A DNA stretch of 57,893 bases from Fidelibacterota bacterium (GTDB taxonomy: Bacteria; Fidelibacterota; UBA8477; JABMPR01): positions 1 through 57,893 of the forward strand of contig JABMQQ010000026.1 of NCBI GenBank assembly GCA_013202495.1, given 5' to 3'. The number at the start of each line of letters is the position of its first letter. The stretch's first letter is position 1. Positions 46,359 to 57,615 of the stretch are shown one piece after another. Both the position numbers and the translations under genes were made by a program. The notes below the pieces were generated by a model. The model was not told the origin of the DNA. It searched no databases and saw only the letters and a list, made by a program, of their open reading frames with translations.

Positions 46359-48308
46359 TTATTTCAAGAGGAGCACTTTAATAACCTCGCTTTGAACTCC
46401 ATGATCAATTTTCGCGAAGTAAACACCTGCTTCTGCAGCACTCCCAGTTACATTCCAACTGACTGAGTAAACACCAACTTCTTTTTTCTCTGAAACCAGA
46501 GTTTCTACCACTCGTCCACTGAGATCATAGATACTTAGTCGTGTAAATGCACTTTTAGTAAGAGAATATTTAATAATCGTACTCGGATTAAAGGGATTCG
46601 GAAAGTTTTGCGATAGACTGAATGATGAAGGATTCTTATTACTTCCATTCAATCCCGCAGTAATCTGATCTACGATACGAATCTCATCCAGCGATAATTC
46701 ACTGGTGCCAAGATCTCCATGCTCTGCCACAAATTCAAGGACATCAATATCTGACCAATCAAAAAGACCCACAGGATCGAACCAGGCACCATCCCAGGAT
46801 CCAGTTTCTACAAATTCGCTAAGTGGAATCTGAACATACTGCCAGGTACCATCCCATTCAATATCTGAAATGGATAAGGTCTTGGTCACTCGCCACGGAT
46901 GGTCCTCTGGTAGAGCATTTTTTGTATCTAAAAAGCGGATGTCGAAACCAACAGGCTGTCCAACTCCTCTTACCCAGCATGTGAGGAGATTATCTTCATC
47001 CAATAATCTGGAAAGATCCCGGTTTGGTAGAAAATTAAAGCCGATTCTTTCGTATTGCGTGGCCTGAGACCAGCTGAGATGATAACTACCCACTTTAGGA
47101 TTATTAGAAGTGTACAAGGTAACGATGCCCTCAGTGTTAAAGTCTGAGAGAATATTCTGACCTATATAATCATCATAAATATAGAATCCCACAGAGTCAG
47201 CCTGAGTAACGAAATCTGTCTGGGGCGGTGTATTGAATCCCATGGCCTCCAGGAGAGGTATGTTCAAATCATGATCAAACATTCCACTACTGTATCTCTC
47301 AAACAGTCCAAAGCCTCCATGGTAATCCCACATGGTCCAGCCGATATTCAATGAATCCAGATAATGAGTCGTTGCTCGATACCATTCAACCCGTTGATCA
47401 GGATCAGAGTTGTGATTAAGAACTCCAAATTCACCACAATAAATAGGGACATCCCTGGATGTGCTAAACGCTACTGCAATATCAATAAGGCTTCTCATAT
47501 GTGCAACCGTACCCTGTGTGGAGTAACTCGCCATATTACTTTGAATCCAGGTTCCCACCAGTGATGATGGGCAGGCCGGCATGGCTGAGGCTCCATAAGG
47601 AAAGGGCACTCCCGTAAGTGGTTCCATAGATGGATCTGTCCAGCTGGCGCCCTGGTGAGTGAAAATAAAGGGATCGTAAAAATGAAAGGTATAGATAAGA
47701 TTGTCATCATTGTAATTCATCATGTCATCCAGATTATTGTAGCTGTTCCAGCTGGAGGGTCCTACAATAAGTGTACGGTTTGAATCAGTCTGTCGAATGA
47801 TGTTCACAATATTTTGCTGGATGGTATCCCAGATAAAATCCGAAATGCCCCAGGGCTCATTTTTGATTTCAAAATAAAGGGTTGAGTCCCGATCTATGAA
47901 GTGCGCTGCCAGTTGTGGCCAGATCAATGATAAAGGTTGATTAATGGCTGGTGTTGTGGCTCCGCCTGAATCAAAACTGTGGTTATCCAGAATGAGATGC
48001 AGACCTAAAGCTTCAGTCCAATCAATGATTTGATCCAGAAAATCAAGCAAGATGGGATCAACGATATAATCGGGGTCCCCACTACTCATCCCATGAAAAT
48101 TGATAGGGAGGCGAATCACATCTACACCAAGGCTTTGAATATCCACAAAATCATCATAGGTATAACGTGAAAATTGGACTTCCTGGATTGAACTCTCCTG
48201 AAACCAGTTACTAAGATTAACACCTTTCTCAAAAGGGGCGGCAGGTTGGGCTGTAAGGGAGGGGACAGTCAGGAGCAGGAGGATAAAACTCATTTGAAGG
48301 CGTTTCAT
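46359..48308 (-). CDS. Secreted GH5-family glycoside hydrolase with T9SS tail
   Basis: A 649-residue exported glycosidase. After the signal (about 1-20), a GH5 (cellulase-like) TIM barrel spans about 25-350. It shows VNLSNWFQ, VIRLPINFHG, the acid/base E151 in EIKNEPWG and the nucleophile E293 in YCGEFGVLN. A beta-sandwich resembling CBM11 or CIA30 carbohydrate-binding domains follows at about 365-560 (WDGTWQYVQIPLSEF). The end is a T9SS tail (NFPNPFNPSTII, KVLLLK). It would hydrolyse beta-1,4-glucans or mannans outside the cell. It sits between amrB and amrA on the same strand, an unexpected place for a glycosidase. Confidence 0.92.
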   Translation of the reverse strand: MKRLQMSFILLLLTVPSLTAQPAAPFEKGVNLSNWFQESSIQEVQFSRYTYDDFVDIQSLGVDVIRLPINFHGMSSGDPDYIVDPILLDFLDQIIDWTEALGLHLILDNHSFDSGGATTPAINQPLSLIWPQLAAHFIDRDSTLYFEIKNEPWGISDFIWDTIQQNIVNIIRQTDSNRTLIVGPSSWNSYNNLDDMMNYNDDNLIYTFHFYDPFIFTHQGASWTDPSMEPLTGVPFPYGASAMPACPSSLVGTWIQSNMASYSTQGTVAHMRSLIDIAVAFSTSRDVPIYCGEFGVLNHNSDPDQRVEWYRATTHYLDSLNIGWTMWDYHGGFGLFERYSSGMFDHDLNIPLLEAMGFNTPPQTDFVTQADSVGFYIYDDYIGQNILSDFNTEGIVTLYTSNNPKVGSYHLSWSQATQYERIGFNFLPNRDLSRLLDEDNLLTCWVRGVGQPVGFDIRFLDTKNALPEDHPWRVTKTLSISDIEWDGTWQYVQIPLSEFVETGSWDGAWFDPVGLFDWSDIDVLEFVAEHGDLGTSELSLDEIRIVDQITAGLNGSNKNPSSFSLSQNFPNPFNPSTIIKYSLTKSAFTRLSIYDLSGRVVETLVSEKKEVGVYSVSWNVTGSAAEAGVYFAKIDHGVQSEVIKVLLLK

Positions 48309-48325: not shown

Positions 48326-49132
48326 TTAAAGCTCAAATAGTCCCCAGGCGCCATATCCAACAACCTGGTCTTTGCGGCCAGACGTATCACCGGAGTTTCG
48401 AAGATCAAGACGTTTGATGGACATACCCTTTTGTTTAGCCAAGTGGAGGAATCCCCGCAGGGGTATGCGGCCACAGGCTGAATGATCTCCCAGCAGTTCT
48501 CCTTGAAATGATTCAATGTGGTTGGCTGCAATGGTATCCAGCTTGACAGCTTCGTCATAACTGTGAAAATGACTCAAGTCGGTAGATATGACGATAAGAC
48601 TCTCGTCTCCACCCCAGAGATATTCAATAACATCAGCAACCTCTTTTTGAGTTGCTTCACCAACTACGAATGGAATCAGTCTGAAGCTGGCCAGAACCTT
48701 CTGTAAAAAGGGAAGCTGGACTTCAAGGGAATGCTCCTCAGCATGGGCTTGATCAGAAAAGGATATCTGAGGATAATCGTCAACCAGTTTTTGGATGGTT
48801 TTTGTATCCAGGTTGATCTCCCCCAGGGGTGTTTGAAACTGGTCATCAGTCGGGAGTGCCAATCCCTGTAGATAAACACGGTGAGCCGGTCCAAGAAGTA
48901 TCACTTTGCGGATGACATGTCTGTATTGGAGTAGTGTACGATATGCAGCAGCAGCAATTGAACCTGAGTAGATAGTACCAGCATGAGGAACAATAATAGC
49001 TTTGGGAACCGCTGTCGTTTCATTTGGTCTTTCATGGATGAAGCCAGAGATTTGATCTTCTAATATGTGAGGATCACCAGGATAAAACATACCTGACACA
49101 GCTGAGGGACGTATTTGCTTGATCTTACTCAT
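48326..49132 (-). CDS. amrB: AmmeMemoRadiSam system protein B (Memo-like)
   Basis: A 268-residue Memo-family protein, related to class III extradiol dioxygenases. The metal-binding histidines are in the expected places: SGMFYPGD, VPHAGTIYSG, ILLGPAHRVY, EEHSLEVQLPFLQ and ISTDLSHFHSYDEA, with the end VVGYGAW. Memo homologues bind copper or iron; the bacterial reaction is unknown. It is the first gene of the minus-strand operon amrB-GH5-amrA-amrS. Confidence 0.94.
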   Translation of the reverse strand: MSKIKQIRPSAVSGMFYPGDPHILEDQISGFIHERPNETTAVPKAIIVPHAGTIYSGSIAAAAYRTLLQYRHVIRKVILLGPAHRVYLQGLALPTDDQFQTPLGEINLDTKTIQKLVDDYPQISFSDQAHAEEHSLEVQLPFLQKVLASFRLIPFVVGEATQKEVADVIEYLWGGDESLIVISTDLSHFHSYDEAVKLDTIAANHIESFQGELLGDHSACGRIPLRGFLHLAKQKGMSIKRLDLRNSGDTSGRKDQVVGYGAWGLFEL

Positions 49133-49284
49133 GGTGGATTCTTATCAATGAAATATAGCGGAGTGAGGGATGGAGGCCAATACTGGATTCCTTCAATCTC
49201 TAAAAGGATGTGTTTCCTTCGTTAAATGAAATTAAAGTTCAAAATCTTTGCATGCGCAAAACTCAGGTCTATATTCACCTCGAA
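49133..49284. other. Upstream part of the amrB / aro intergenic region
   Basis: Divergent spacer that must hold the minus-strand promoter of amrB and the plus-strand promoter of the aro leader. A possible -35 TTGCAT (49248-49253) and -10 TATATT (49270-49275) face the leader peptide. No further gene is seen. Confidence 0.45.
49248..49275 (+). promoter_or_regulatory. Candidate promoter of the aro operon leader
   Basis: -35-like TTGCAT and -10 TATATT (five of six matches) are separated by 16 bases. Transcription would start at about 49282, just before the leader ATG at 49285, so the leader peptide mRNA may be leaderless; no Shine-Dalgarno site is visible. Confidence 0.45.
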
Positions 49285-49329
49285 ATGAAATGGCAAGCAT
49301 CATATTACTTTTTTATGCGATCAGGGTGA
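49285..49329 (+). CDS. Aromatic-rich leader peptide of the aro attenuator
   Basis: A 14-codon frame, MKWQASYYFFMRSG and stop TGA. It carries one Trp and the tandem run Tyr-Tyr-Phe-Phe (49303-49314), directly in front of a terminator and an operon for Tyr/Phe synthesis. In known attenuators such as pheA and trp, ribosomes stall at these codons when the charged tRNA is scarce. The stop codon lies inside the strand that would form the antiterminator. No ribosome site is seen, so it may be translated from the mRNA end. Confidence 0.8.
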   Translation: MKWQASYYFFMRSG

Positions 49330-49364
49330 TGGTTTAAATCTGTATATTTGAACATTTTCACCCT
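49323..49364 (+). promoter_or_regulatory. Antiterminator pairing of the aro attenuator
   Basis: AGGGTGA (49323-49329) is an exact complement of TCACCCT (49358-49364). The second strand takes up the first four bases of the terminator stem. A ribosome at the leader stop codon would cover the first strand and let the terminator form; a ribosome stalled 10-20 bases earlier would leave it free. Confidence 0.7.
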
Positions 49365-49389
49365 CGTCAATTGGCGGGGGTTTTTTTTT
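49361..49389 (+). terminator. Attenuator terminator of the aro operon
   Basis: The stem CCCTCGTC / GGCGGGGG (8 pairs, two of them G-U) has an AATT loop and is followed by nine T. It lies about 100 bases before the first aro gene and has no upstream plus-strand gene to end except the leader peptide. Confidence 0.85.
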
Positions 49390-49413
49390 ACCATCAAGCG
49401 CAGCTTGATGGTA
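49389..49413. repeat. Perfect hairpin after the attenuator
   Basis: TACCATCAAGC / GCTTGATGGTA with the loop GCA, an 11-base stem directly after the T tract. GC-rich bases with repeated GCGAAGC words follow up to about 49450. Its role is unknown; it could protect the 5' end of a processed transcript. Confidence 0.6.
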
Positions 49414-49487
49414 CCGCGGCGAAGCTGAAAGCGAAGCCGGGTCGGGTTGATAACAAAGCTTAAACCAGGAAAAAGAGGATAAACACA

Positions 49488-50813
49488 GTGGTAGAGAATA
49501 AACAAAAGGTAGGAATAATAGGCTTCGGACGTTTCGGAGCTCTACTTGCCGAACTGTTGAGTAATGATTATCAGCCCATCATCACAGATGAGCGTGACCT
49601 ATCTGAGTTGGCTCAATCCTCTGGATACCCCTGGGCAGATCTTGAGACTGTCATGCAGCAGGAAATCGTGTTTTTGGCCGTTCCGATCAGTCGGATGAAG
49701 AATTTGCTCAAGGAAATAGCTCCACAGAGTCGACCAGGTCAGGTTTTGATTGATGTGGCCTCTGTAAAAACCCGTATTCGAGACTGGATGATTGAAGCAT
49801 TACCCTCAACTGTGCAAATTTTAAATACTCATCCTATGTTTGGACCTGATTCCTACAAGCGGGATCGTGATCTGAGGATGGTATTCTGTCCAACTCGTAT
49901 CGATGCAGAAATTGAAAGTACCTGGCGTAATATTTTTGAATCCTGGGGTTGCAGACTCATTGATCTTGAAGTTGAAGACCATGACAGATTAGCTGCCCGT
50001 TCTCAAGGTATCACTCACTTTGTCGGCCGTGTCATGAAGGGGATGGATATTCAACCTACTGCCGTAGACACACATGGATTCAGACAAGTTCATCATGTGG
50101 TTGAACAAACCTGTCAGGATACTGAGGAACTCTTCCATGATTTGCAGTATTATAATCCCTATACACCTGAAATGCTCACCGACTTCTCGAGATCGGTGCA
50201 CGCTGTGAAAGCGCGTGTGTATCGTCCCGATTCTCCCCCTGAGGTGATTGGTTACCAGGGTATCCCTGGCAGTTTTTCTGAGGAAGCAGCACGCAATTAT
50301 ATACAAGAGGAAAAACTGGGAGACATAGACACCAAACCTTGTCTCACCAGTCGAAATGTCATGGAAAGTCTGTATACATATGAAATAGATCGTGGTATAA
50401 TTGCCATGGAAAATGCGAGAGGAGGTGTGGTTCATGAGAGTATTCATGCGTTGGCGAAAGCCCGATGCAAGGTACGCTCCATGTTCCACATCCAGGTAAA
50501 TCAATGTCTTATTACAAAAGCAGGAGTTGATCCCAAAGAGATAACGGAAGTTCGATCTCACCCTCAAGCGCTCAAGCAATGTTCACGGTTTTTAAGGGAA
50601 AATTTTGCAAATGTCCCTCACCTTGAAGCGGAAGATACCGCTGAAGCTGCCAGGAAGCTGCATCAGGGAGAATTTTCAGATACCACCGCCGTCATTGCAC
50701 CAGCCCGAGCTGCTGAATTATATGAACTGAATGTGAGTCAGTTTGGGATTCAGGACCTGAAAGACAATAAGACGCTGTTTCTCGTCGTAGAGCGAACAGG
50801 AACCTCGATTTAA
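49488..50813 (+). CDS. Prephenate dehydrogenase / prephenate dehydratase fusion
   Basis: A 441-residue bifunctional enzyme. Residues about 5-245 are prephenate dehydrogenase: NAD site GIIGFGRFGALL (9-20), THPMFGP (114-120), ITH at 175-177. Residues about 254-438 are prephenate dehydratase: GYQGIPGSFSEEAARNY, MENARGGVVHE, RSHPQALKQC. It makes 4-hydroxyphenylpyruvate and phenylpyruvate, the branch steps to Tyr and Phe. The protein stops just after the TRF site, so there is no ACT regulatory domain. The site itself reads TLF (429-431): the usual Arg is Leu. No chorismate mutase domain is present. The start at 49488 is a GTG, preceded by AAGAGGA. It is the first structural gene after the attenuator. 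Confidence 0.88.
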   Translation: MVENKQKVGIIGFGRFGALLAELLSNDYQPIITDERDLSELAQSSGYPWADLETVMQQEIVFLAVPISRMKNLLKEIAPQSRPGQVLIDVASVKTRIRDWMIEALPSTVQILNTHPMFGPDSYKRDRDLRMVFCPTRIDAEIESTWRNIFESWGCRLIDLEVEDHDRLAARSQGITHFVGRVMKGMDIQPTAVDTHGFRQVHHVVEQTCQDTEELFHDLQYYNPYTPEMLTDFSRSVHAVKARVYRPDSPPEVIGYQGIPGSFSEEAARNYIQEEKLGDIDTKPCLTSRNVMESLYTYEIDRGIIAMENARGGVVHESIHALAKARCKVRSMFHIQVNQCLITKAGVDPKEITEVRSHPQALKQCSRFLRENFANVPHLEAEDTAEAARKLHQGEFSDTTAVIAPARAAELYELNVSQFGIQDLKDNKTLFLVVERTGTSI

Positions 50814-50871: not shown

Positions 50872-51888
50872 ATGATTGTCATAATGAATGTAAACGCTTC
50901 CCAGGAAGCTATAGATAGAGTCCAACAGGAAATTGAAAAACTGGGCTATACACCCAAACCTGCTCCCGGTGAAACCCGTACCATTGTCGGAGTGATGGGA
51001 CCCAAACCCCTGCGTGGGAAGCAGCACCTCCAGGCCTTACCAGAAGTTTCAAATGTTATTGAGATCAGCACACCTTATAAATTGGCTTCACGGGAATGGC
51101 AGCCGCAGGATACTATTGTGAACGTGGGCGGAGCCCGTATTGGCGGCTCCAACGTGTCGATTATCGCCGGCCCCTGTTCAATTGAATCCTATGAGCAAAC
51201 CAAAACGGTGGGTGATGCTGTAAAGACGGCAGGAGGTCACTTTCTCCGTGGTGGTGCATTCAAGCCACGAACATCTCCCTATTCCTTCCAGGGTCTGGGT
51301 GTTGAAGGACTCAAAATTCTGAAACAGGTTGGCAAGGAAGTTGGTTTGCCCACAGTGACCGAAGTGACAGATACAGAAGTATTGGATATCACGGCACAAC
51401 ATACAGACATGCTCCAGATAGGTACCCGTAACATGCAGAATTTTACGCTTATCAAAGCAGCAGCGCGTACGGGGATGCCCATCTTTTTAAAGCGTGGAAT
51501 GTCAGCCACTGTGAACGAAACCATTCTGGCTGCGGAATACATTTTGAATGAAGGGAATGAAAAACTGGTTCTCTGTGAACGAGGAATCCGTACCTTTGTG
51601 GATCACACCAGAAATACTCTGGATGTGAGTGCCATTCCTGCCTTTCAGCGTTTAACCCATCTGCCAGTAGTGGTTGATCCCAGTCATGCTGCTGGAAAAA
51701 GATCAAAAGTGCTACCTTTATCTTTAGCTGGAATAGCAGCCGGAGCTCAGGGTGTCATGGTTGAAGTTCATCCAAACCCTGAAGTTGCTCTCAGCGATGG
51801 GCCTCAACAATTGGTCCCGGCAGATTTCAAACATCTGGTAGATCAAATCAGACTGGTTGCTGAAGCTGTTGGCAAAAAACTGGACTGA
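50872..51888 (+). CDS. aroF: 3-deoxy-7-phosphoheptulonate synthase (DAHP synthase, type I beta)
   Basis: A 338-residue enzyme that joins phosphoenolpyruvate and erythrose 4-phosphate, the first step of aromatic synthesis. Residues about 1-75 form the ferredoxin-like regulatory domain known from the Thermotoga enzyme, where it binds Tyr and Phe. The catalytic barrel has the metal ligands C102 (GPCSIES), H272 (DPSHAAG), E298 (VEVHPNP) and D309 (LSDGPQ), at the same positions as in the Thermotoga maritima enzyme. The second gene of the aro operon, 58 bases after the fusion gene. Confidence 0.95.
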   Translation: MIVIMNVNASQEAIDRVQQEIEKLGYTPKPAPGETRTIVGVMGPKPLRGKQHLQALPEVSNVIEISTPYKLASREWQPQDTIVNVGGARIGGSNVSIIAGPCSIESYEQTKTVGDAVKTAGGHFLRGGAFKPRTSPYSFQGLGVEGLKILKQVGKEVGLPTVTEVTDTEVLDITAQHTDMLQIGTRNMQNFTLIKAAARTGMPIFLKRGMSATVNETILAAEYILNEGNEKLVLCERGIRTFVDHTRNTLDVSAIPAFQRLTHLPVVVDPSHAAGKRSKVLPLSLAGIAAGAQGVMVEVHPNPEVALSDGPQQLVPADFKHLVDQIRLVAEAVGKKLD

Positions 51889-51908: not shown

Positions 51909-53168
51909 ATGGCTTTGCTTGGAGAAATTAGGCTACCTGGTGACAAATCAATAAGCCATCGAGCCCTCATGTTTACCGCGTTGAGTGATGGTCTTAGTCG
52001 CCTTGAAAATCTGAATCCTGGGGCCGATGTGGTCACAACTCTGCGTGCCCTGATCAACTGTGGAATTCATATCGAAGAAAAGCATGGTGTTGTCCATGTC
52101 CAGGGCGGTGGACTGCGTCCGTTCAAACAACCTGATCTGGGAGTTGACTGTGGAAACTCGGGGACCACTGCACGCTTGATGATGGGTCTTTTAGCGGCTC
52201 ACCCCATCCATGTTCAGTTCACAGGTGATCAATCTCTCAGCAAACGACCCATGGATAGAGTTTTCAGACCTCTCCAGCAAATGGGTGCGAACATCTCTGC
52301 CAACAAAAGAAACTATTTACCCCTTATGCTGAGCGGTCGTGAACTGTGGGCTCTGGATTACCAGTTACCCTATGCCAGCGCCCAGGTTAAATCAGCCATT
52401 CTTTTGGCAGGGCTGCACGCAAAGGGACAAACCACGGTCAAATCGCCAGCTTTTAGTCGCGATCATACTGAGCAAATGCTTAAGGCTATGGGTGCACGCA
52501 TAAAGGTCAAGGGACGTGAAGTGACAGTCCATCAACTGACTAAACCACTCAAACCTATCGATTTTGTGATACCTGGTGACTTTTCTGCTGCGGCCTTTTT
52601 TATTGCTGCAGCCCTCATGGTTCCTGATTCAGATGTGATCCTTCGTGGTGTTGGGATAAATCCAACAAGAACAGCCTTTCTCAGAGCTGTCAAGGAAATG
52701 GGTGGAAAGATAACAGTGGCCAATAAAGCAAAGCTCAGCGGTGAAGCTATTGCTGATTTACGCATCCGAGCCTCTCAGTTAAAAGGCATTCAAATCTATC
52801 CAGAGCAGATTCCAAATCTGATTGATGAATTGCCTCTCATTGCACTATTGGCAACACAAGCTGAGGGTGAAACTGTGGTAACGGGTGCTGAAGAATTGCG
52901 CGTGAAGGAATCCGATCGAATTGCTGCGATTGTGACCAATCTAAGTGCCTGGGGTGCCAAAATATTTGAGCGACCCGATGGATTTCATGTAGAAGGACCA
53001 ACACCTCTTAAGGGGGGCAAGGTCAAAACCTATAATGATCATCGTATTGCCATGACGCTGGGTGTCGCAGGACTGATCAGCAAGTCACCAGCAACTCTGG
53101 ATGACCCGGATTGTGTAGATATTTCATATCCTGGTTTCTTTGATGAGCTTCGGGGTTTAATAAGTTAA
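51909..53168 (+). CDS. aroA: 3-phosphoshikimate 1-carboxyvinyltransferase (EPSP synthase)
   Basis: A 419-residue EPSP synthase. Family signatures are PGDKSISHRAL (10-20), DCGNSGTTARLMMGLL, SKRPMDRV, ASAQVKSAILLAG, FSRDHTEQML, LRVKESDRIAAI and YNDHRIAMTL. The enzyme joins shikimate 3-phosphate with phosphoenolpyruvate. A ribosome site (AAGGAG) lies 11 bases upstream and the gap to aroF is 20 bases. Confidence 0.96.
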   Translation: MALLGEIRLPGDKSISHRALMFTALSDGLSRLENLNPGADVVTTLRALINCGIHIEEKHGVVHVQGGGLRPFKQPDLGVDCGNSGTTARLMMGLLAAHPIHVQFTGDQSLSKRPMDRVFRPLQQMGANISANKRNYLPLMLSGRELWALDYQLPYASAQVKSAILLAGLHAKGQTTVKSPAFSRDHTEQMLKAMGARIKVKGREVTVHQLTKPLKPIDFVIPGDFSAAAFFIAAALMVPDSDVILRGVGINPTRTAFLRAVKEMGGKITVANKAKLSGEAIADLRIRASQLKGIQIYPEQIPNLIDELPLIALLATQAEGETVVTGAEELRVKESDRIAAIVTNLSAWGAKIFERPDGFHVEGPTPLKGGKVKTYNDHRIAMTLGVAGLISKSPATLDDPDCVDISYPGFFDELRGLIS

Positions 53169-53212: not shown

Positions 53213-54079
53213 GTGAAATTAGCCGTTATTGGTGATCCTCTCAGACAAAGTGTCAGCGATTTTATGCATGGTTGGATATACGAGCAGCTTGCACTGGAGG
53301 CTGAGTATAAAAAGATCAAGGTTGTCCAGGGAGATCTGGAACGCTGGGTCAAGCTCCCTTCTGCTAGGAAGCTGGATGGATTTAATGTGACCATCCCCCA
53401 TAAAGAGGATATTATCCCCTTCCTGGATAGTGTGAATGATCGTACTGCACCAATTGGCGCAGTGAATTGTGTCAGACGCCATGATGGGAAACTCACTGGA
53501 TACAATACGGACTGGTATGGCTTTGTGAAATCTCTGGAAGCCGCAGGTGTGGATCTGGCAGGAAAAAAAGTAGTCGTCCTGGGGAGTGGCGGTGCCGCAC
53601 GAGCCATCACCTTTGGGTTGGCCCGGGTTGGAGCTGGTAAAACCACAGTGATTGCAAGAGATCCTGATAGGGCAAAAGCCCTTATTAAGGACATGAGCAG
53701 TTCTGCTGAAGGCATGAAATTAGCTGGCTGCTCCTGGGATGAAAGCGCAGTTGAACCCATTGAAGATGCATATTGCCTGGTCAACTGTACTCCAATTGGA
53801 ATGAAGCCAAAACAGAATGAGAGTCCTCTGGATGGAGATATCCTGGAATCCATCGATGTTGTGGTTGACACTATTTTTAATCCATTGAATACACGCTTAC
53901 TCTCAGAGGCAATATTTTCTGACTGTCAAACCGTTTCTGGTTTGGATATGTATCTCTATCAGGCCATGGCCTCAGTTGATGTCTGGTTTGGACCCCAGGA
54001 TTGGAATCGAATTAAGATGAATGAGATGCGCGAAGCCGTTCACAACAAGATAACGGGCTTTAAACGAAAATTCGAATAA
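53213..54079 (+). CDS. aroE: Shikimate dehydrogenase
   Basis: A 288-residue shikimate dehydrogenase. Substrate side: DPLRQSVSDFMHGW (the usual His is Gln at position 12), FNVTIPHKE with the catalytic K64, and GYNTDWYGF with D100. NADP side: VLGSGGAARAITFGLARVG (about 122-140). The end GLDMYLYQAMASVDVW is typical. The start is GTG at 53213, positioned by AGGAG at 53202; the overlapping ATG at 53211 meets a stop at once. Confidence 0.94.
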   Translation: MKLAVIGDPLRQSVSDFMHGWIYEQLALEAEYKKIKVVQGDLERWVKLPSARKLDGFNVTIPHKEDIIPFLDSVNDRTAPIGAVNCVRRHDGKLTGYNTDWYGFVKSLEAAGVDLAGKKVVVLGSGGAARAITFGLARVGAGKTTVIARDPDRAKALIKDMSSSAEGMKLAGCSWDESAVEPIEDAYCLVNCTPIGMKPKQNESPLDGDILESIDVVVDTIFNPLNTRLLSEAIFSDCQTVSGLDMYLYQAMASVDVWFGPQDWNRIKMNEMREAVHNKITGFKRKFE

Positions 54080-54227: not shown

Positions 54228-55382
54228 ATGTTACAGCACCTAAAATTTTTAACAGCTGGGGAATCACACGGCAAAGGCTTGTCAGGAATTCTTGAAGGAT
54301 TCCCTGCTGGTGTACCACTTTCCGAAAGTTTTATCGCCAGAGATCTAGCTCGTCGGCAAATGGGTCACGGTCGCGGGGGTCGCATGACCATCGAGAAGGA
54401 TCATGCTGAAATAACCAGCGGGTTGCGTCATGGAAATACCCTGGGATCTCCCATAGCACTCTGGATCCAGAATCGGGATTGGGAAAACTGGAAACAGGAT
54501 AAAATGTCACATGAAGCACCATCGAATCCTGTTCCTGAGGTGACTCTACCTCGTCCAGGCCATGCTGATCTGGCTGGAGTTCAAAAATTTGGCTTCAGTG
54601 ACATTCGCAATGTTCTGGAACGGTCATCTGCTCGTGAAACTGCCATGAGAGTAGCCCTGGGAGCAGTTTGCCGAGCCTTCTTAAACGAATTGGGTGTTAA
54701 GATATTCAGCCATGTGATTCAGATAGGCCCTGTCAAAACCGCAACAAAACCAGATCAACTACACACGGATTTGAATAAAGCTGCAGATGCCTCTGATGTG
54801 AGGTGCCTGGATAAAGAAGCCGCCGAGGCAATGATCAAACATATCGATATAACCCGCAAAGCGGGTGATTCGGTGGGGGGTGTTTTTGAAGTTCTCGCCT
54901 CGGGACTACCACCTGGTCTGGGTTCTTATACTCATTGGGATCGCAAGCTGGATGCCCGCCTGGCTGCCGCTATGATGTCAATCAATGCCATGAAATCAGT
55001 AAGTATTGGAGATGGTCTGGATGTCGGTGAGGCCACTGGATCTCAGGTTCACGATGAAATAATTTTACAAGATGATACCATCCGCAGAGCCACAAATCAT
55101 GCAGGGGGTATAGAAGGTGGTATGTCAAATGGTGAGCTTATTCAGGTTCAAGTCACCATGAAACCCATCCCAACCCTGGCAAGACCCTTAAGATCGGTGG
55201 ATATCAAAACCCATGAACCTGGAATAGCTCATAAAGAGAGAACCGATGCCTGTGCCGTTCCAGCTGCTTCTGTAATTGGTGAGGCCATGATGGCTTTGGT
55301 TTTGACTGATGCTATCCTTGAAAAGTTTGGTGGAGATTCTCTAGACCAGGTCAAAGCGCACATCGCTGCCACAGGAGTGTAG
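54228..55382 (+). CDS. aroC: Chorismate synthase
   Basis: A 384-residue FMN-dependent enzyme making chorismate from EPSP. Signatures: LTAGESHGKGLSGILEGFPAG at the start, RRQMGHGRGGRM, TLGSPIALWIQNRDW, RPGHADLAG, RSSARETAMRVALGAVCR, and in the last third GGIEGGMSNGE and RTDACAVPAASVIGEAM. Length is normal. The gene is followed by aroK after 22 bases. Confidence 0.97.
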   Translation: MLQHLKFLTAGESHGKGLSGILEGFPAGVPLSESFIARDLARRQMGHGRGGRMTIEKDHAEITSGLRHGNTLGSPIALWIQNRDWENWKQDKMSHEAPSNPVPEVTLPRPGHADLAGVQKFGFSDIRNVLERSSARETAMRVALGAVCRAFLNELGVKIFSHVIQIGPVKTATKPDQLHTDLNKAADASDVRCLDKEAAEAMIKHIDITRKAGDSVGGVFEVLASGLPPGLGSYTHWDRKLDARLAAAMMSINAMKSVSIGDGLDVGEATGSQVHDEIILQDDTIRRATNHAGGIEGGMSNGELIQVQVTMKPIPTLARPLRSVDIKTHEPGIAHKERTDACAVPAASVIGEAMMALVLTDAILEKFGGDSLDQVKAHIAATGV

Positions 55383-55404: not shown

Positions 55405-55926
55405 ATGAGCATTAGTAAAGTATACTTGATTGGCTTGATGGGTGCTGGCAAAAGTACCGTCGGTCGACTTTTGGCTGATGCGCTCAGCTGGCAATTGCTG
55501 GATATTGATCATGAAATTGAAAAATTTGCAGGAAATGACATCCCCTCCATTTTTGAAGCACAGGGAGAGGATGGATTTCGTGACTATGAAGCTCAGGTTC
55601 TCATTGACACAGCTTCACTGAACAAGGCCATCATACCTTGTGGGGGAGGCATTGTAACCAGACCTGAAAATGTAGAGTATCTGAAGGACCACCTAACTAT
55701 CTGGCTGGATGTATCTCCTGAAGAAGCTGCAGCTCGACTGGAGCATTCAGATCATCGTCCCCTGTTAAATGAATGCAAGGATACGATTAAAAAATTGCAG
55801 GAAATTTTGGATAATCGCCAGGCTGGCTATGCTGAAGCCGCCACACTCCATATAAATACCAGGCAACGGGCTCCAGATATGATTGCCCATGAAATACTTG
55901 AGAAGCTAGAAAGCTACCATGTCTAA
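55405..55926 (+). CDS. aroK: Shikimate kinase
   Basis: A 173-residue P-loop kinase that phosphorylates shikimate with ATP. Walker A is GLMGAGKSTVGR (10-21), the substrate segment is LLDIDHEIEKFAG, then GFRDYEAQVL, the IPCGGGIVT loop and the lid with HRPLL. The stop overlaps the aroB start by 8 bases, so translation is coupled. Confidence 0.96.
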   Translation: MSISKVYLIGLMGAGKSTVGRLLADALSWQLLDIDHEIEKFAGNDIPSIFEAQGEDGFRDYEAQVLIDTASLNKAIIPCGGGIVTRPENVEYLKDHLTIWLDVSPEEAAARLEHSDHRPLLNECKDTIKKLQEILDNRQAGYAEAATLHINTRQRAPDMIAHEILEKLESYHV

Positions 55927-57034
55927 ATCACCAGCCCTTAAAATTACCCATAGGACTGGCTCTTACGAGATTCGTGTGGGCCAGAATCTGCTGGATTCGG
56001 TGGCAGAGCTACTCTCAAGTATTGGCGCCTTTGGACCTGTAGGAATTATCAGCAATGCTGCGGTCAATGATCTCTATGGTAGACCAATTCGTGAAGCGCT
56101 TAACCAGGCTGATTATGTAACTCGAACAATCTTGATCCCTGAAGGTGAGGAATATAAAACCCTGGCCTCGGCAGAGCAGGTGATGTCCGCTTTGATTGCC
56201 CAGGGCATGGAACGCTCTGGAACCATTCTTACCCTGGGAGGCGGTGTGGTTACTGATTTGGGTGGTTTTGTTGCCAGCATTCTCTACCGTGGGGTCAAAC
56301 TTGTCCATATCCCAACAACTCTGCTATCTATGGTGGACGCTGCTGTAGGTGGTAAGACCGGTGTTAATCATACCAGTGGTAAAAATCTGATCGGGAGCTT
56401 TTATCAACCTGATTTGGTCATCATGGATGTGAAAACGCTGGAAACCCTACAGGCTCGTGATCGCATCTCAGGATATGCAGAAATGTTTAAGATGGGTGTG
56501 ATTCGCGATACGAGCTACTTAAAATTTCTTGTTGACCATATGGATGAATGTTTGGCAGTTGAGTCTGGCGATATCCTCATCCAAGCAATCACTCGAAGTT
56601 GTGAACTGAAGGCTGAGGTGGTTGAGGTTGATGAGAAGGAAGCAGATTTACGACGCATTCTGAATTTTGGACATACTCTTGGTCATGCTATTGAATCCAC
56701 GCTCGGATATGGTGTTGTCCGACATGGTGAAGCTGTCATTCTTGGCATGTATGGTGCGGGATGGCTTTCCAATCAGGTCGGTGATTTATCGATGGAAGAT
56801 TGGGATAAACTCTCAACCATGCTGAAGAGAATTCCCTTAGAGCTTCCACTAAAGTCCTTAAATCCGGAAGCCATTGAAATGGCAACCCGCCTGGATAAAA
56901 AGGTGGCGAATTCACAATTGAACTTTGTTTTACTGCACCGCCTGGGAGATGCTTATATGCAGACTGGGATTCCGACATTAATGATAAAATTGGCCGTTGA
57001 TGCCATCAGATCTGTCTGGGAGGGTAGCGAATGA
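55919..57034 (+). CDS. aroB: 3-dehydroquinate synthase
   Basis: A 371-residue NAD- and zinc-dependent enzyme that closes DAHP to 3-dehydroquinate. Signatures: LIPEGEEYKTLASAEQVM, TLGGGVVTDLGGFVASILYRG, HIPTTLLSMVDAAVGGKTGVN, the metal-site ILNFGHTLGHAIES and VRHGEAVILGM. Complete. The operon still lacks 3-dehydroquinate dehydratase and chorismate mutase, which must be elsewhere. It overlaps marC by 4 bases. Confidence 0.96.
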   Translation: MSKSPALKITHRTGSYEIRVGQNLLDSVAELLSSIGAFGPVGIISNAAVNDLYGRPIREALNQADYVTRTILIPEGEEYKTLASAEQVMSALIAQGMERSGTILTLGGGVVTDLGGFVASILYRGVKLVHIPTTLLSMVDAAVGGKTGVNHTSGKNLIGSFYQPDLVIMDVKTLETLQARDRISGYAEMFKMGVIRDTSYLKFLVDHMDECLAVESGDILIQAITRSCELKAEVVEVDEKEADLRRILNFGHTLGHAIESTLGYGVVRHGEAVILGMYGAGWLSNQVGDLSMEDWDKLSTMLKRIPLELPLKSLNPEAIEMATRLDKKVANSQLNFVLLHRLGDAYMQTGIPTLMIKLAVDAIRSVWEGSE

Positions 57035-57615
57035 CTCTAGATTTTAATGCTTTCATGCATGCTTTTGTGACCCTGTTGGTCATTATGGATCCCTTTGGTG
57101 GATTGCCCGTGTTTATGACATTAACCAAGGATTATCCTGAAGAGCGGGCAAAACACAGTGCTCATCGAGCGACCCGTGTGTCTCTCATCTTACTCACTCT
57201 TTTTGTTTTTGTGGGGGAGGGGATTCTTGAATTTTTTAGCATAACAATGTTTTCTTTCCAGGTTGGTGGCGGGCTCATTCTGCTTTCTTTGGGCTTATTA
57301 TATGTTCTGGGTGTCACCCTGGGGGATGATAAGGATTATTCCAAAGATATCGTCATTCCCATGGCCACACCTCTCATTGCAGGCCCCGGAGCGATTACAG
57401 CAATAATTATTCTGGTTTCGCAATATGGATTTTGGGTACCTCTGTTGGCCATGTTGCTGAACCTTTTTATTTTTTGGCTAGCCATGTATTATGCGAAGTA
57501 CATCAAAAAGTTTCTGGGTGAGCAGGGACTGGAGATCATGAGTCGTGTCATGGGGCTTTTACTGGTTGCTCTGGCAATCGAGATGATCAGAACAGCCTGG
57601 ATAGAGCTCCTCTGA
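57031..57615 (+). CDS. MarC family integral membrane protein
   Basis: A 194-residue protein with six membrane helices of the MarC/UPF0056 family. Recognised by VIMDPFGGLPVFMTLTKDYPEE at about 18-39, FSITMFSFQVGGGLILLSLGL and PMATPLIAGPGAITAIIIL, with RVMGLLLVALAIEMI at the end. The function is unknown; the old link to multiple antibiotic resistance was withdrawn. It is coupled to aroB by an ATGA overlap but has no obvious part in aromatic synthesis. Confidence 0.93.
   Translation: MTLDFNAFMHAFVTLLVIMDPFGGLPVFMTLTKDYPEERAKHSAHRATRVSLILLTLFVFVGEGILEFFSITMFSFQVGGGLILLSLGLLYVLGVTLGDDKDYSKDIVIPMATPLIAGPGAITAIIILVSQYGFWVPLLAMLLNLFIFWLAMYYAKYIKKFLGEQGLEIMSRVMGLLLVALAIEMIRTAWIELL

Follow-up and report, generated by a model that had tools for sequence, protein, structure and literature searches.

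The window analysed here, a stretch of 57,893 nucleotides, belongs to the MAG of an uncultured marine bacterium of Ca. Neomarinimicrobiota (Marinimicrobia) and carries a run of eight genes headed by a tyrA-pheA fusion, ahead of which lie a promoter-like site, a short reading frame and two alternative hairpins. The features are as follows:

49247-49275, + strand: promoter-like site by consensus match, TTTGCA (49247-49252), a 17-nt spacer and TATATT (49270-49275).
49285-49329, + strand: leader peptide frame MKWQASYYFFMRSG, 14 codons, ATG at 49285, without a Shine-Dalgarno-like motif.
49303-49314, + strand: putative control codons 7-10, Tyr-Tyr-Phe-Phe (TAT TAC TTT TTT), aromatic in 18/18 family leaders read.
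49323-49364, + strand: antiterminator found by folding, AGGGTGA (49323-49329, over the stop) with TCACCCT (49358-49364), plus an upper stem.
49360-49389, + strand: intrinsic terminator found by folding, ACCCTCGTC-AATT-GGCGGGGGT, then nine T (49381-49389).
49390-49443, + strand: a pair of small hairpins lying 3' of the terminator and 5' of the gene, of which the second is like a dispersed REP-like repeat of the genus.
49474-49479, + strand: Shine-Dalgarno-like AGAGGA of tyrA-pheA.
49488-50813, + strand: tyrA-pheA fusion, prephenate dehydrogenase plus prephenate dehydratase, first structural gene (Pfam PF02153, PF00800).
50872-51888, + strand: DAHP synthase, first shikimate step (Pfam PF00793, PF18152).
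51909-53168, + strand: aroA, EPSP synthase (Pfam PF00275).
53213-54079, + strand: aroE, shikimate dehydrogenase (Pfam PF08501).
54228-55382, + strand: aroC, chorismate synthase (Pfam PF01264).
55405-55926, + strand: aroK, shikimate kinase (Pfam PF01202).
55919-57034, + strand: aroB, 3-dehydroquinate synthase (Pfam PF01761, PF24621).
57031-57615, + strand: MarC-family membrane protein, overlapping aroB (Pfam PF01914).

All eight genes were supported by Pfam, including that of the MarC-family protein, which is perhaps the last of the operon. A preliminary description of this DNA had set the element before tyrA-pheA, aroF, aroA, aroE, aroC, aroK and aroB, and its phrase "nearly the whole shikimate pathway" was fair, because aroD was not among the eight genes tested. 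The order is kept in relatives: DAHP synthase follows tyrA-pheA in 13/13 named family loci, and aroA follows DAHP synthase in 12 of them, the thirteenth locus being short. Twelve of the 13 named relatives found are Neomarinimicrobiota/Marinimicrobia, and one is named only "bacterium". The gene 5' of the leader (48326-49132) lies on the opposite strand and reads away, so the terminator does not serve it. Farther upstream, the minus strand (46359-48308) encodes a large secreted-looking protein with an NFPNPFNPST-type C-terminal end, which we take to be a sorting signal on a product with a glycoside-hydrolase look.

The 14-codon frame is present as originally described, from the ATG at 49285 to the TGA at 49327-49329, and it is a short frame, of predicted translation, in which codons for amino acids made by the operon are clustered. 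Nine bases separate TATATT from the leader ATG in the window, which places the predicted transcription start at that ATG or within a few bases of it. The same spacing holds across the family of the window (f1), where TATATT was found 8-10 nt 5' of the leader ATG at 16/16 loci. Moreover, a Shine-Dalgarno-like motif precedes 0/16 leaders versus 15/16 tyrA-pheA starts in these loci, the in-frame start with such a motif having been taken wherever there was a choice. The missing motif and the close TATATT together indicate that f1 leaders are probably leaderless, as had been suggested. A comparable geometry was observed elsewhere in the phylum, where 14/17 other-family leaders listed have an in-frame ATG 7-8 nt after a permissive TAnnWT box, one of them (G129) placed by eye; G151 has it when measured from an upstream in-frame ATG, and G124 and G072 did not match.

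Comparison within the family revealed how narrowly the frame is conserved. A leader was found at 16/16 family tyrA-pheA loci with upstream DNA, and its core codons read YYFF in 14 of them, YYYF in G002 and YFYF in G019, a member of another genus. A covariance model (R1) added two genomes (G004, G016), bringing the leader to 18/20 family genomes; G008 and G011, 63% and 72% complete, gave no R1 match. With the window as reference, 13 relatives without indels showed 7 synonymous changes and 1 non-synonymous change (Phe to Tyr) in core codons 7-10 versus 6 synonymous and 40 non-synonymous changes in the other nine leader codons, inherited changes counting once per relative. Such a pattern points to selection on the amino acids of the core. 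The spacing is also largely kept, with the core at nt 19-30, GGTGA at nt 41 and the stop at nt 43 in 14/16 loci; a one-base insertion in G012 moves the stop by 9 nt, and G019 has six extra bases ahead of the core and a later stop. Control by Tyr, Phe and perhaps Trp had been proposed: the Tyr/Phe core is indeed kept, whereas Trp sensing in the genus of the window found no support, because the single Trp codon (codon 3) lies outside the core and occurs in only 11/18 family leaders. As a separate observation, amino-acid pathways are patchy in this genus (g1), with HisG in 7/19 genomes, TrpA in 5/19 and acetolactate synthase over the cut-off in 4/19, the Tyr/Phe leader being present in 17/19; several of these genomes are incomplete.

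Downstream of the core, the complementarity between AGGGTGA over the stop codon and TCACCCT was confirmed at 49323-49329 and 49358-49364. Folding disclosed an upper stem absent from the preliminary description, GTTTAAAT (49332-49339) with ATTTGAAC (49346-49353), for a total of 15 antiterminator pairs. The terminator had been given 8 pairs; its nine T and its sharing of bases with the antiterminator stood, but the hairpin (49360-49381, loop AATT) has 9 pairs when the outer A-T is counted. The two hairpins share ACCCT and are mutually exclusive, and the intrinsic terminator lies ahead of the first structural gene. Folded apart, both form in the window genome (G000) with nearly equal energies, -15.9 and -14.8 kcal/mol. 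An antiterminator hairpin joining both strands was obtained at 16/16 family loci (-12.8 to -17.5 kcal/mol), and a terminator hairpin of similar energies likewise at 16/16; the antiterminator of G005 is shortened with partly other pairs, and the terminator of G009 has an extra G ahead of the T run. When folding from AGGGTGA onward was left unconstrained, the antiterminator prevailed in 6/16 family loci and the terminator in 10/16. The whole leader (49285-49389) is only moderately unusual in its stability, with a z of -2.25 and 6/200 shuffles equally stable.

The small hairpins at 49390-49443 are probably outside the switch, and a second regulatory element after the terminator was rejected on finding that the second of them matches a dispersed repeat. 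This hairpin (49412-49443) is small and symmetric, CGGC-GAA-GCT...AGC-GAA-GCCG, and resembles the REP-like repeat dispersed in the genus; the 75-base stretch compared has matches in 16/19 genus genomes, with E up to 0.5 and many of them short and weak.

Alignment of relatives had been proposed as a check, and it revealed the conserved aromatic codons; compensatory changes stood out clearly only when families were compared, those within the genus being weak. Among the 16 family sequences, 90% of cells are paired in the antiterminator and 99.3% in the terminator; the covariation score was reached by 66/500 and 30/500 shuffles, respectively. Weak covariation may be expectable where three strands constrain one another, which is not positive evidence. 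An alignment of ten distant leaders (A2) was likewise weak in covariation, and its score was higher when slid by +3. Between families, one position of the antiterminator helix is G-C or U-A and the next is A-U, G-C or U-A; these helices were selected because they pair, and a scan against shuffled regions is therefore the fairer test.

Such a scan asked blindly for a short ATG frame, an antiterminator helix of at least 6 pairs and an intrinsic terminator, ignoring amino-acid identity. On both strands of the 57,893-base window it returned this site only, as three overlapping frames with one hairpin pair. Applied to 97 regions upstream of pheA or tyrA-pheA in the phylum (16 of family f1, 80 further ones and G124), it gave 27 positives, each having 4 or more Tyr/Phe codons in a stretch of 8, and none in 20 dinucleotide-shuffled sets nor in the reverse complements of the 97 regions. 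The sample comes from 137 genomes with a PDT match, of which 97 regions were scanned, 10 more were read by eye and the other 30 lay outside it. Dropping the antiterminator condition let 32/97 regions pass. The strict scan recovered 14/16 family loci, because G005 and G009 fail it through the shortened antiterminator and the extra G, respectively. As for other attenuators in the genus, the blind scan found none in 7 HisG, 13 IlvB-like and 20 TrpE-like loci; one match among five true trp operons, at L195, was non-aromatic and judged to be chance.

How a ribosome would act on these hairpins was modelled by masked folding of the 27 scan positives. With the ribosome at the stop, the antiterminator fell to 0.00 and the terminator reached 0.94-0.99; a ribosome waiting on the first codon of the core, before the terminator 3' arm is made, gave the antiterminator a mean pair probability of 0.88-1.00. 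Equilibrium folding with a ribosome in that waiting position favours the terminator over the antiterminator in 23/27 (means 0.83 and 0.26). This preference, together with an antiterminator in only 6/16 unconstrained folds, implies that the model needs co-transcriptional kinetics, and the switch would accordingly be kinetic. A ribosome stalled at the last Phe codon would already cover part of AGGGTGA (edge at 40, strand at 39-45). In these models the antiterminator would lie free under a ribosome stalled earlier in the core and be covered by one at the stop, the placement expected of an attenuator.

With its anatomy, its conservation, its codon pattern and its match to the next gene, the element is by far best explained as a classical ribosome-mediated transcription attenuator, at a probability of about 0.9. 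That identification, already made in the preliminary description, has gained from the comparison, in which frame and aromatic codons are kept while their neighbours change and both hairpins can form at each of the 16 family loci. Transcription would start at or just before the leader ATG, and ribosomes would probably bind a leaderless message. A shortage of charged tRNA-Tyr or tRNA-Phe would stall the ribosome at codons 7-10, leaving AGGGTGA and the upper stem free to pair with the strand that otherwise supplies the terminator's 5' arm, and transcription would continue through tyrA-pheA and the aro genes. With both tRNAs charged, the ribosome would reach the TGA within AGGGTGA and cover the 5' side of the antiterminator, so that the terminator would form. 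The physiological response proposed, like the stalling and termination behind it, is a prediction from sequence.

Beyond the family, the same plan recurs widely. Among 245 genomes, R1 matched the 18 family genomes and G124, where the match lies directly before pheA. A second model (R2), trained on ten leaders from other families, matched 39/245 genomes, including those ten. All 39 matches were read: in 38 of them, weak ones included, trpE, pheA or chorismate mutase plus class II DAHP synthase come next, and the contig of the remaining one (G170) ends too soon. Most of these next genes were identified by eye, and seven proteins were put to NCBIfam: the best match was TrpE for five, three over the cut-off and two below it (cut off by the locus end), and chorismate mutase and class II DAHP synthase (an incomplete protein) for the remaining two, both below the cut-off. 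Altogether, 61 genomes carry leaders, comprising f1, the R2 set, G076, G077, G179 and, as a weaker case, G072. Leaders that have diverged but keep the plan were found in nine other families (f7, f10, f11, f15, f21, f22, f25, f26 and f31), several resting on one genome, and f19 joins them only if G072 is counted. G217 was left uncounted, as were two candidates in f20 (G074, G075) with Phe codons but without a terminator. In family f6, no leader was found upstream of tyrA-pheA in 10 loci read, and a coding sequence taken by eye for DAHP synthase runs up to that gene. A trpA-like motif precedes pheA in 30/97 regions, 29 of them without a leader directly before pheA, the exception being a deletion scar (G129); leader and pheA share one contig and strand in 15/22 trpE-leader genomes, 6.4 to 13.4 kb apart. 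In the phylum as a whole, this plan is found ahead of aromatic operons, with Tyr/Phe codons before pheA, tyrA-pheA or chorismate mutase/DAHP synthase genes and Tyr/Trp/Phe codons before trpE. Family f7 offers some variants: in three loci (L378, L382 and L385, genomes of at most 1 Mb), a leader FYNFYFYF or NFYYYF lies before a chorismate mutase-like gene, a class II DAHP synthase following in G099 and, by eye, in G089, and other f7 genomes have a WKWYF leader with a GTG start before trpE.

The codon content of these leaders follows the next gene. At least 2 Trp codons occur in 22/22 leaders before trpE, mostly of YYSWYWFF type, versus 1/38 before other aromatic genes (Fisher p 1.6e-15, treating related leaders as independent). 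These 60 leaders are those with a known next gene, their Trp counts entered by hand from the leaders read; G170, with two Trp codons, was left out since its contig ends before the next gene, and five of the 22 (family f7, KTWKWYF) need a chosen GTG start, without which the count is 17/17. The predicted control codons thus match the products of the operons they precede. The single exception among the 38 (G165) is itself a trp deletion. In three genomes (L351, L347 and L353), the start of trpE is joined to the end of trpA between leader and pheA; the trpE remnant measures 110 bases with two Trp codons in G165, 72 bases with one in G129 and 22 bases with none in G138. These scars seem to catch the Trp codons of the leader being lost stepwise. 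MAG chimeras could imitate such a joint, but it recurs in three genomes from two families.

Five trp operons were also read, that of the window genome itself (L191, C146, about 2390-2566) and four more (L192-L195): a TTGACA/TACAMT promoter overlaps ACTAGT in 4/5 genomes, a motif that, as we take it, resembles a TrpR operator. Within a few bases of it, 4/5 genomes have a short frame that starts with ATG and carries one or two Trp codons toward its end (by eye; SWQC, SWPC, LWNQWRS and SWWRLAS), and an intrinsic terminator was not found by these frames in the five operons.

Other explanations of the f1 element have to be weighed against these data. Two competing hairpins, of which equilibrium folding alone mostly favours the terminator, would also suit a switch governed by a factor or a sensed metabolite (an RNA-binding protein, a T-box or a riboswitch), beside which the short frame is incidental. 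Such a switch is very unlikely: no Rfam family reached its gathering score in the leader region (Trp_leader RF00513 gave 13.3 bits vs 41), the frame is the sole conserved element noticed between promoter and hairpins, its core codons change synonymously while the flanks do not, and Trp codons follow trpE. Less likely again is that the peptide acts in trans as a small regulatory protein, attenuation being secondary, as reported for peTrpL of Sinorhizobium meliloti, likewise a 14-residue peptide, whose coding sequence lies at the extreme 5' end of the RNA (PMC7298713). Outside its core the f1 peptide is little conserved, with the 40 non-synonymous changes in nine codons already given, as would be expected of a sensor more than of a protein; it may still act in trans as well as by attenuation. 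The least likely option, a constitutive early terminator or the end of a neighbour transcript beside a chance frame, draws on the ability of a terminator placed between promoter and gene to reduce expression in the absence of a signal, but the upstream gene reads away and the frame-hairpin plan recurs in about 60 genomes and in none of the shuffled sets.

We consider it somewhat more probable than not that a single leaderless attenuator lineage, old in the phylum, serves the aromatic operons of Marinimicrobia. Its common and perhaps ancestral form, YYSWYWFF, would read Tyr, Trp and Phe before the trpE of a trp-pheA cluster, and its codons would track the genes entering or leaving. Repeated invention, instead of common descent, is a possible origin of the f1 leader and those of other families. 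If the single lineage is true, the codon content of a leader records the history of its operon. The wider set of leaders is in any case a natural experiment in which sensor codons track the following gene, and it makes testable how fast a sensor is reshaped once its target changes. In the window, one switch would stand over most of the shikimate pathway together with the Tyr/Phe branch, and the short terminated RNA relative to read-through could offer a sequence marker for amino-acid limitation in ocean metatranscriptomes.

Attenuators reportedly occur in proteobacteria and a few other phyla, according to a 2004 study by Vitreschak et al. Enterobacterial pheL-pheA and trpL-trp have mutually exclusive hairpins with a stop codon near them. 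No paper joining the phylum with leader peptides was found among those listed by a literature search that used its older names and not Fidelibacterota, nor were leaders with all three aromatic residues met in the literature searched. In a survey of Actinobacteria, Phe and Tyr operons showed no RNA structure that is conserved (PMC1262725), and a 2010 survey states that, to its authors' knowledge, no leader-peptide system had been shown outside Proteobacteria/Actinobacteria before their own Firmicutes cases (PMC2965389). Leader-peptide attenuation is hereby extended to a large, almost wholly uncultured phylum, of which Fidelibacter multiformis is said to be the only isolate (PMC11652737); the mechanism was already known, and its occurrence there is new within the literature searched. 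The uORFC-13-1 motif, a candidate Phe uORF before aroF, resembles the window leader in being a predicted uORF that has one or more Phe codons and a terminator ahead of DAHP synthase; an RBS is part of its published consensus, whereas the window leader is without a Shine-Dalgarno-like motif (PMC8632094). The leaderless trpL of S. meliloti, with its 14-residue peptide (PMC7298713), and the leaderless attenuators of Streptomyces lividans (PMC8079986) share a transcript that begins at the leader start codon, as predicted in the window, but belong to other lineages and have control codons for Trp, Leu and others, not Tyr/Phe. Enterobacterial pheL-pheA and trpL-trp resemble our element in that the operon is preceded by a leader peptide with many residues of the amino acid it makes (PMC11802643) and differ from it in that the window leader has no Shine-Dalgarno-like motif, probably no 5' UTR, and mixed Tyr/Phe control. 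Corynebacterium glutamicum aroR, a leader with Phe-Tyr-Phe before the aroF DAHP synthase operon, likewise puts Phe/Tyr leader codons and ribosome stalling at the entry of the shikimate pathway (PMC11802643), but in an unrelated phylum; in the window, tyrA-pheA is the first gene of an operon with six shikimate genes, and similarly built leaders in other parts of the phylum carry Trp codons where trpE is next. Set beside these systems, the attenuator described here is ordinary in mechanism, well supported by comparison and broader in its distribution than was claimed at the outset.
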